NCBI RefSeq assembly: GCF_009674585.1
Contig: NZ_WKJP01000001.1
Span: forward strand, 496,001 to 560,000
DNA: 64,000 bases
DNA from: Haloferax marinisediminis
Lineage (GTDB): Archaea; Halobacteriota; Halobacteria; Halobacteriales; Haloferacaceae
Direction: 5' to 3'
Part shown: positions 20,851-23,718 of the stretch, piece after piece
Layout: each line of letters begins with the position of its first letter
Numbering within the stretch: position 1 is the first letter of the stretch
Notes under the pieces: generated by a model
The model's database searches: none
What the model saw: only the letters and a program-made list of their open reading frames with translations
Told to the model about the DNA's origin: nothing
Program-made: the position numbers and the translations under genes

Positions 20851-21420
20851 TTAGAACGAGCTGCCGAGCAGTCCGAGTTCTGAGAGTCGCTCCATGATAA
20901 CGTCGACTGCTGCCTCTGCATCTGCTGGTTTCTTGCCGCCGGTGATGACGAGTTTGCCCGACCCGAAGAGAAGCGCCACCACGCTCGGTTCGTCGAGACG
21001 GTAGACGAGACCCGGGAACTGCTCGGGTTCGTACTCGATGTTCTCCAGACCGAGGCCGATCGCGATGGCGTTGAGGTTCAGATTCTCGCCTAAGTCTGCG
21101 CTGGTGACGATGTTCTGAACGGTGATTTCAGGGTCTTCGTCGACAGGAATCTGGAGTTCTCGAAGTTTGTCGAAGACGATACCGAGACTCTCGTGTACGT
21201 CGGCCGTCGACTTCGCACCGGTGCAGACGATCTTACCCGAGCGAAAGATGAGCGCCGCAGATTTCGGATTCTGCGTCCGATAGACGAGACCCGGGAACTG
21301 TTCCGGGTCGTAGTCGGCGCCTTCGAGGTCCATAGCCACACTCTGGAGGTCGAGTTCTTGGCCGATTCCCGTGGAGGCGACGACGTTTTCGATGTTGATG
21401 GTGTCCTTGGGGTCGGTCAT
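20851..21420 (-). CDS. tbp: TATA-box-binding protein
   Basis: General transcription factor that binds the TATA box and recruits TFB. The 189-aa protein is two direct repeats of the saddle fold: residues ~8-90 ([20 protein letters not shown] ... [18 protein letters not shown]) and ~100-180 ([20 protein letters not shown] ... [20 protein letters not shown]). [10 protein letters not shown] and [10 protein letters not shown] end the repeats. Haloarchaea carry several TBPs; this one is full length. Start ATG at 21418-21420 with an upstream minus-strand TTTTAAA box. Confidence 0.96.
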
Positions 21421-21478: not shown

Positions 21479-21790
21479 TTAGATTCGCCGTCGGATAATC
21501 TGGACGTTCCGGGCCGTGACGATGGTCCCGAGTAATGTCAATGCAGTGGGAACTGCGAGTCGGGCAGTCGTCGGTCTGAGTGTCCAGTACGCGGCGACGA
21601 AGAGCACGACTGAGACGACTTTCAAGACGGCGAACGACCCCGGTCCGGGGTCACCACCAGAGAGAAATCGAACGATTGGGTTGCCCTCCTGTACGCCTGC
21701 CATCCTGACCCCGACGATGGTCGTGACGTAGTCGCCGAGGCCGTAGGCGAGTGCCGCCGCACCCCAGAGGATGGCGTCGAGCGAAGTCAT
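21479..21790 (-). CDS. Small membrane protein, DUF5658-like
   Basis: A 103-aa protein starting MTSLDAILWGAAALAYGLGD. Three hydrophobic segments are present, and the YGLGDYVTTI...MAGVQEGNPIVRF pattern resembles small archaeal membrane proteins of the DUF5658 type; that assignment is tentative. The longer frame to 22024 is Arg-rich and unlikely. A minus-strand GATTTATCA about 27 nt upstream of 21790 supports the start. Confidence 0.7.
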   Translation of the reverse strand: MTSLDAILWGAAALAYGLGDYVTTIVGVRMAGVQEGNPIVRFLSGGDPGPGSFAVLKVVSVVLFVAAYWTLRPTTARLAVPTALTLLGTIVTARNVQIIRRRI

Positions 21791-21936
21791 GCGGGTGGAT
21801 TCGGACCATCCATGATAAATCTCGCCGTCTGTGGTCGAACAGATACCGTCTCTCTGGTGGGTGCCCGACTGCCGACTCGGACGGCAGACTCGTCGGCGAC
21901 CGATACCCTCATTTTTCCGCCCCGTCAGGTCCGAGC

Positions 21937-22902
21937 GTGTACGGATTGGAACTCGCCGGCGAGGAAGACCCGTTCGCCGCGCGTGAGGCCGAAGCGGCCG
22001 CGACGGCAATCGAGGTCGTCGCACCGGGCCTCGCCACCGCCCGCGGCGTCGACATCGAGCGAGCCACGCAGCTCGCGTACACCCGCCGCGTCGTCGAACT
22101 CGTCGGGAACTGCGACCCCGACGTCGAGGCCGCTAGCGCACTCGTCGAAGCCGCCAGCATCGACCGCGAAGGAACCGTCGCCGTCCGCGCCCGCGACATC
22201 CGTGGCCTGACAGACGTCAGTACGACCGACGCCGAGCGGACCGTCGGGTCGGTCCTCGTCGAGCGCGGCTTCGACGTGGACTTGGACGACCCAGACCACG
22301 AACTCCGCGTCTACTTCTCGGAAGGAACGTGTCTCGTTGGCTGGGCCGTCGCCGAGAGCGTCCGTGACTTCGCGGACCGTAAACCAACCGACCGCCCGTT
22401 CTTCCAACCGGGGAGCATGGCCCCCGTGGACGCCCGTGCCTTCGTCAACATCGCTGGCGCGGAACCGGGTGCTCGAATTTTGGACCCGATGTGCGGCACC
22501 GGCGGCGTCCTCCTCGAAGCGGGACTCGTCGGTGCCGACGTCGTCGGCGTCGACGCACAGGCGAAGATGGCCCGTGGTGCGCAGGTGAACGTAGACCACT
22601 ACGTCGGCGACGGGCACGTGATTCGTGGAGATGCGACGTCACTCCCGCTCTGTGACGACACCATCGACGGCGTGGTGTTCGACGCGCCCTACGGAAGACA
22701 GTCGAAGATTGCCCGACACACGCTTGCGGACTTAGTCGGCGGTGCGTTAGAAGAGGTGTACCGGGTCGCGCCGCAGTGTGTGATGGTCGCCGACCGGTCG
22801 TGGGTCGACGAAGCAGAAGCTGCGGGCTGGGAGGTCGAACAGGTGTTCGAGCGGCGAGTTCACCGGTCGCTCGTCAGGCACGTGCATATTCTGCGCCGAT
22901 AA
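21937..22902 (+). CDS. trmG10: tRNA (guanine(10)-N(2))-dimethyltransferase Trm-G10
   Basis: SAM-dependent enzyme forming m2G and m22G at tRNA position 10. In the 321-aa product the N-terminal ~150 residues form the RNA-binding (THUMP-type) part. The C-terminal Rossmann fold has ILDPMCGTGGVLLEA (SAM loop) and the catalytic FDAPYGRQS, the (D/N)PPY-type motif. The start is read as the GTG at 21937 (YGLELAGEED follows); the in-frame extension to 21751 lacks family-like sequence. Confidence 0.9.
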   Translation: MYGLELAGEEDPFAAREAEAAATAIEVVAPGLATARGVDIERATQLAYTRRVVELVGNCDPDVEAASALVEAASIDREGTVAVRARDIRGLTDVSTTDAERTVGSVLVERGFDVDLDDPDHELRVYFSEGTCLVGWAVAESVRDFADRKPTDRPFFQPGSMAPVDARAFVNIAGAEPGARILDPMCGTGGVLLEAGLVGADVVGVDAQAKMARGAQVNVDHYVGDGHVIRGDATSLPLCDDTIDGVVFDAPYGRQSKIARHTLADLVGGALEEVYRVAPQCVMVADRSWVDEAEAAGWEVEQVFERRVHRSLVRHVHILRR

Positions 22903-22924: not shown

Positions 22925-23075
22925 CCTCCACACGTGGCACTCAGCGTAGTTCTACTCCAGTACCGCAGTGTGACGAGCGCAACCGCTCAGAGTGTTAGAA
23001 CGACGGGGTAGGTCAGCCAGCCAAACCCACCGTGGAAACCACGAGGGTCGAAAGGAGCCGTCTGACCGTGCCGTC
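22925..23075 (-). ncRNA. Candidate structured non-coding RNA (three hairpins)
   Basis: The 271-nt gap between convergent genes folds well. On the minus strand, hairpin 1 pairs 23071-23075 with 23002-23006, 23062-23067 with 23011-23016, 23045-23048 with 23025-23028 and 23039-23043 with 23031-23035. Hairpin 2 pairs 22984-22988 with 22975-22979. Hairpin 3 pairs 22968-22972 with 22929-22933 and 22959-22964 with 22936-22941. The pair 22962/22938 is U-G on the minus strand but A-C on the plus strand, favouring minus. A minus-strand TATA-like CTTATAG ends exactly where a start near 23075 is predicted. It does not match SRP, RNase P or C/D RNAs that I know. Confidence 0.45.
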
Positions 23076-23097
23076 TACATGAGACTCTCTGCTGGCG

Positions 23098-23104
23098 CTA
23101 TAAG
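23098..23104 (-). promoter_or_regulatory. TATA-like box upstream of the candidate RNA
   Basis: CTTATAG on the minus strand is centred about 25 nt before 23075, the first base of the outermost stem of the candidate RNA. It lies downstream of the GNAT stop codon. Confidence 0.45.
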
Positions 23105-23173
23105 ACACCTGCGGAACTACAGTTTGACACGTGCGCCAAACGCCGGCGAGAGAACGTGAACAACCTACCCGGC

Positions 23174-23662
23174 TTATTCCAACGCGTACCGATTTTCCCG
23201 ATACGAGTCGCCACCGATGGTCGTCTTCGCCTCGTCGACGAACTCGAATCCGAACTGTTCGTAGAAGGTGTTTCCCGGCTCGTTCTCGGCGAGAACCATC
23301 GCGTTGATTCGGTCGACGCCTTCGGTAGAGAGGTCGCCACGTATTCGTTCGAGCAACTCGGACCCGACGCCCTGCCGTCGGTGGTCGGGGTGGACGTACA
23401 GACGGAGGATGTACCCCTCGTGTTCGTCGTTGCTCCACGTCGCGTGAGCGAATCCGACAACCGATTCGTCGCGTTCGGCGACGAGCACGAGTGACCGCGC
23501 CGGGAGCAGCGCATCCGCGATTTGCTCGTGTGCGTACCAGTCTTCGACACCCGCGTCGATAGTCTCGCGTGTCAGTATCTCCGGGTAGTCAGTCTCCCAC
23601 GACCGTTTCGCCACCCGTCGAATCGCCTCGATGTCGTCCTCGGTGGCCGCTCGTATTGGCAT
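23174..23662 (-). CDS. GNAT family N-acetyltransferase
   Basis: A 162-aa acetyl-CoA-dependent transferase. The acetyl-CoA pyrophosphate loop is LYVHPDHRRQGVGSELL (motif A), preceded by SVVGFAHATW and followed by NAMVLAENEPGNTFYEQFGF (motif B with Asn and Tyr). The acceptor is unknown. The ATG at 23660-23662 (MPIRAATEDD) is preferred to the 15-residue extension to 23707. Confidence 0.88.
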   Translation of the reverse strand: MPIRAATEDDIEAIRRVAKRSWETDYPEILTRETIDAGVEDWYAHEQIADALLPARSLVLVAERDESVVGFAHATWSNDEHEGYILRLYVHPDHRRQGVGSELLERIRGDLSTEGVDRINAMVLAENEPGNTFYEQFGFEFVDEAKTTIGGDSYRENRYALE

Positions 23663-23718
23663 GAGAATAAGTACCACGGGTACACCGATATTCCTTCCCT
23701 TCAGCACGGACTGCGAGA

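Follow-up and report, generated by a model that had tools for sequence, protein, structure and literature searches.

What, if anything, is encoded in the 180-nt gap between two protein-coding genes of Haloferax marinisediminis, and on which strand? The gap lies in the window that we analyzed, a 64,000-nt stretch of the genome. It is flanked by a trmG10-like THUMP/methyltransferase gene (21751–22902, plus strand; Pfam PF01170 and PF02926), which is a convergent neighbor of the RNA described here, and by a GNAT acetyltransferase gene (23174–23707, minus strand; Pfam PF00583), which ends upstream of the RNA's promoter; both were considered to be outside the system. A TATA-binding protein gene is encoded about 1.5 kb away (20851–21420, minus strand), and a genome search revealed six TBP-domain matches, corresponding to about three genes.

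An initial annotation had proposed that the minus strand of the gap encodes a structured ncRNA, expressed from its own promoter and starting near 23075. This proposal was supported by the homologs, their compensatory changes and their conserved upstream block, with the start position predicted from the promoter. Based on these comparisons, the minus strand of 22973–23079 is almost certainly a freestanding gene of a structured, trans-acting ncRNA: it has its own promoter and a conserved RNA structure, and its neighbors are not conserved. The RNA is about 105 nt long and fits no previously classified family. To our knowledge, few archaeal ncRNAs beyond the universal set have a fold that is backed by covariation across families.

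Fold and covariation

The whole gap folds with an energy of −74.1 kcal/mol on the minus strand and −66.2 on the plus strand (z = −2.1 for both), which is only marginally better than chance, as 8 of 200 shuffled sequences matched or exceeded it. When the fold was computed for 22973–23079, the minus strand reached −46.2 (z −3.1; 1 of 200 shuffles), versus −38.6 (z −1.8) on the plus strand. The core spanning the helices P1–P3 alone (22997–23075) was more distinct, with z −3.8 and none of 200 shuffles matching it, and the most distal hairpin of the gap (22925–22972) had z −2.0. The better folding of the minus strand had been noted in the initial annotation. In homologs, G-U pairs are frequent and would read as A-C on the opposite strand, which assigns the RNA to the minus strand. 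Covariance models scored 75–114 bits on this strand vs. 19–27 bits on the opposite one.

We tested the structure on an alignment of 55 distinct sequences (A3), counting 5 bp in P1, 6+3 bp in P2 and 11 pairs in P3. The 5′ strand of P1, GACGG (23071–23075, minus strand, as are all elements of the RNA), pairs in all 55 sequences with the invariant CCGUC (23002–23006), and the changes within P1 are one-sided only, from A-U to G-U and from C-G to U-G. A short CAC/UACC internal loop joins P1 to P2, where GGUCAG, a mismatch and CGG (23058–23067) face the 3′ strand at 23011–23020, and six of the nine pairs show two-sided compensatory changes. The larger, asymmetric loop between P2 and P3 carries the motif CCUUUC (23050–23055), five of whose six positions are invariant among the 55 sequences and the first nearly so. 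P3 is an apical hairpin (GACCCUCGUGG UUU CCACGGUGGGU; 23025–23049) with two-sided changes in 6 of 11 pairs, and at the 3′ end follows a tail (22973–23001) that is conserved, is largely unpaired and includes NCUCUAACACUC and GAGCGRCNGC, in which GAGC is invariant in the 55 sequences. Altogether, the invariant or near-invariant segments are GGCAC or GACGGCACGG, the CCUUUC of the P2–P3 loop, CUACC..CCGUC or CCUA..CCGUC, and the GAGCG of the tail.

Across P1, P2 and P3, 93.6% of the cells in the alignment are paired. We searched the homologs for uncompensated substitutions that break the helices, and the RNA passed this examination: two-sided changes were evident in 12 pairs (63 cells), far above two types of controls. 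The covariation score was 0.242, compared to 0.152 ± 0.007 for shuffled controls and at most 0.088 for slid structures, and on all five measures none of the 500 shuffled controls matched the real structure.

The initial annotation had described three hairpins, the outer one with nested helices of 5, 6, 4 and 5 bp. These helices are P1, the lower and the upper part of P2, and P3, respectively, and the outer hairpin is conserved. The second hairpin (approximately 22974–22989, GAGCG...CGCTC) is retained in some relatives only, and the third, at 22925–22972, has no similarity even at the syntenic locus of Haloferax marinum and, by this comparison, lies outside the conserved RNA. The extent of the RNA was therefore overestimated, as one conserved hairpin followed by a tail was found instead of three hairpins.

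The GAGCGRC of the tail is complementary to a GUCNCUC that overlaps P1 (columns 84–90 with 106–112 of A3), and the R and Y positions of the two segments are always compatible with pairing, hinting at an alternative fold. This helix excludes P1; 83.4% of its cells can pair and covariation is absent. It is costlier than P1 by 5.4 kcal/mol on average and better in 3 of 55 sequences only. A switch between the two helices is possible but unproven, and the energies favor P1.

Promoter and predicted start site

Upstream of P1 we identified a conserved block resembling a BRE/TATA promoter (CCGCAGGTGTCTTATAGCGCC / CCGCAGGTGTCTTATAGCG; 23094–23114, minus strand; genome positions 519094–519114). Its consensus in relatives is ACCGGAGGtGTTTTRTAGCG (also ACCGGAGGnnTTTTRTAGCG) or a variant thereof. 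By script matching, the T-run lies 23–26 nt from P1 in 54 of 57 sequences, and a similar upstream block was recognized by eye in the remaining three. The TATA-like CTTATAG noted in the initial annotation, estimated there at about 25 nt from the outer stem, is located at 23098–23104, 23 nt ahead of the stem's first base (23075), and homologs carry TTTTRTA in the corresponding position with constant spacing. The promoter spacing suggests that the transcript begins with the first bases of P1, placing the predicted 5′ end at about 23075–23079; the 3′ end is likewise an estimate. Conservation drops off on either side of the RNA.

The rRNA leader of the same genome contains TTCGACGGCCTTTTATGTAACCG, which resembles the promoter block of the ncRNA and is similar to CCGGAGGCCTTTTACGCGG, found before the ncRNA in some Haloferax. 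A combined promoter pattern occurs at four places in the genome, a rarity that is not independent evidence, since the pattern was designed from both the ncRNA and the rRNA promoters.

Distribution and genomic context

A DNA search detected homologs in 15 of 60 genomes of the family, covering the first hairpin and often also its upstream sequence. The covariance model R1, built from 16 sequences (match at 22979–23079, 103.1 bits), identified the RNA in 45 of 145 genomes of the class and in all 15 Haloferax genomes. A second model, built from 55 sequences (R2; match at 22973–23079, 100.6 bits), identified it in 111 of 341 haloarchaeal genomes, representing 32 of 81 genera, with E-values mostly between 1e-12 and 1e-25; intermediate scores were rare. 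When 39 negative genomes were scored more deeply, only four weak matches emerged, all with E > 0.01, and most absences therefore look real. In a sample of 120 genomes of the phylum, no R2 match was found outside Halobacteria, nor were viral copies confirmed, as none of ten pattern matches was supported by the covariance model.

The carriers include Haloferax, Natrinema, Natronomonas, Halobaculum, Halolamina, Halovivax, Natronorubrum, Haladaptatus, Halomicrobium and Halorubellus, while about two thirds of the genomes, among them congeners of carriers, lack the RNA. Some genomes encode two or three copies (G019:C5, G126, G369 and G392; L056 and L092, Natronomonas gomsonensis); the copies are identical in sequence in N. 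gomsonensis and diverged in Halobonum tyrrellensis. Plasmids of Halomontanus rarus and Halorussus halophilus carry copies in unannotated gaps.

The genes nearest to the RNA belong to different families in most loci. In Haloferax denitrificans and H. massiliensis, an FAD-dependent oxidoreductase-like gene and a luciferase-like gene flank the homologous locus. Recurrent neighbor clusters (ABC ATPases, TPP enzymes and the like, as judged by eye) represent large common families or close relatives, with nothing consistent that would link the RNA to a neighboring gene. A cis-regulatory leader, such as a riboswitch or a ribosomal-protein leader, was also rejected, as the downstream genes differ and are often encoded on the opposite strand. 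The unrelated locations, the plasmid copies and the presence and absence within single genera suggest that the function is accessory rather than universal. The RNA constitutes a new Rfam-type family to be annotated in about one third of haloarchaeal genomes. Alignments, a covariance model and a predicted start site are available for it, and Haloferax offers a tractable host: all 15 species examined carry the RNA in single copy, so the partner and the function can be tested directly.

Comparison with known RNAs

In agreement with the initial annotation, which did not recognize a family, a search of Rfam 15 gave no family for the RNA in the gap. Across the window no family exceeded the gathering cut-off except for one tRNA elsewhere, and lowering the stringency around the gap to E = 5 yielded a single chance match to HIV-1_SD, outside the gap. 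Inspection of A3 revealed neither the conserved GA/UGA strand pair of a K-turn or K-loop in the P2–P3 loop nor the conserved RUGAUGA of C/D box sRNAs. Searches of openly accessible papers, using names as well as pieces of the sequence, turned up no description of the RNA.

Among 27 sRNAs that were examined in H. volcanii by deletion, 22 are confined to that species (PMC3956466). H225.2R (HVO_1727s2), which is 96 nt long and present in 19 other haloarchaeal genomes, is like our RNA in length and in how widely it is conserved. It is followed by HVO_1728, a 16S rRNA gene, which places H225.2R beside the rRNA operon, and identity of the two was rejected, as the loci of our RNA in the examined Haloferax lie elsewhere. 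The length also fits STRG.2577.4, a 111-nt intergenic sRNA of H. volcanii and the most highly expressed one; that the two are the same is a guess from length, not a finding.

Possible modes of action

The nucleotides with the strongest conservation are held between helices, in loops and junctions, as would be expected of protein-binding RNAs. Our best single guess, tentative as it is and placed ahead of an antisense seed, is therefore that the freestanding, trans-acting ncRNA binds a protein through the CCUUUC internal loop. Transcription starting at the first bases of P1 would close the 5′ end into this helix, yielding a stable RNA; the protein-binding site would consist of the CCUUUC loop together with the junction of P1 and P2, and the tail would contact a second partner. 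The RNA would then act not as an antisense RNA but as a protein-bound regulator: a sponge, a mimic or an RNP scaffold. An indispensable RNP seems unlikely, as some members of a genus carry the RNA and others lack it.

CCUUUC may just as well serve as a seed for base pairing, and the likeliest rival is a trans-acting antisense sRNA, whose CCUUUC, CUACCCC or tail would pair with target mRNAs and alter their stability or translation, although we consider it rather unlikely. Its own gene and promoter, its accessory distribution and its pyrimidine-rich conserved loop would suit such a regulator, and sRNA regulation is known in Haloferax, where sRNA132 and rancRNA_s194 of H. volcanii, intergenic RNAs of about 100–140 nt that are independently transcribed from TATA-type promoters of their own, were proposed to act in trans (PMC6560208; PMC6104027). 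Those two functionally studied sRNAs are restricted to the genus, whereas the RNA studied here spans many haloarchaeal families with a covarying fold, and its most conserved segments lie partly within helix P1. The likeness between the rRNA leader and the upstream block in some Haloferax raises a different reading, a 6S-like or ribosome-linked RNA whose promoter would be growth-rate-controlled and similar to the rRNA promoter. It is improbable, since the rarity of the pattern carries no independent weight and the RNA is missing from most genomes, congeners of carriers included.

Slightly less probable still is a guide RNA for rRNA, either a divergent pseudouridylation guide of the H/ACA type or one of another kind. 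Like archaeal H/ACA guides, the RNA has a hairpin with internal loops, followed in many sequences by a tail that contains ACA, and stretches of 9–10 nt complementary to rRNA do exist. It differs from these guides in pocket, ANA position and targets: among the uridines of the rRNA operon, the best bipartite fit to the pocket is 3+3 bp (sense strand); the ANA box expected directly 3′ of the basal stem is a variable ACA, AUA or CUA about 6–7 nt after P1; the complementarity to rRNA is within the range of shuffled controls; and an Rfam match is absent. The variable location and the occasional duplicates would also fit a conserved DNA element, a mobile repeat or a coding fragment rather than an RNA gene. 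We regard this as very improbable, as the compensatory changes point specifically to RNA pairing on a single strand, the model scores differ between the strands to the same effect, the promoter is found at transcription spacing, and indels in the 55-sequence alignment are not in threes.

A second RNA candidate in genus g14

A weak R2 match in genome G014 (E 0.013; 26.1 bits) led to a second conserved candidate ncRNA of haloarchaea, about 120 nt long and present in 21 genomes of genus g14 in addition to G014 (L184:1502–1620, plus strand; also L192–L212). It forms a long covarying stem, with 99.7% of cells paired and two-sided changes in four pairs. No Rfam family was assigned to it, and the other members that were tried had no R2 match at the corresponding place. 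It shares with the Haloferax RNA a GAC...GUC basal stem and a CUCUACA...GAGC tail, while its CCUUUC motif is on the opposite strand of the loop. The candidate is possibly a distant relative, with homology unproven on these sequences. A bolder and still less certain extension of the protein-binding reading, which we consider unlikely, is that the Haloferax RNA forms the core of a novel ribonucleoprotein of haloarchaea and that its structure is rearranged in at least one relative (the second family, at L184 and in genus g14, with CUUUC on the opposite loop strand). If true, a whole class of lineage-specific stable RNAs in haloarchaea has been overlooked. Conserved features of the second candidate also include a GCCUUUCAAC loop, the CUCUACA..GAGCCG form of its tail and an upstream block, GTGAACGAGGGTTTATATAC.
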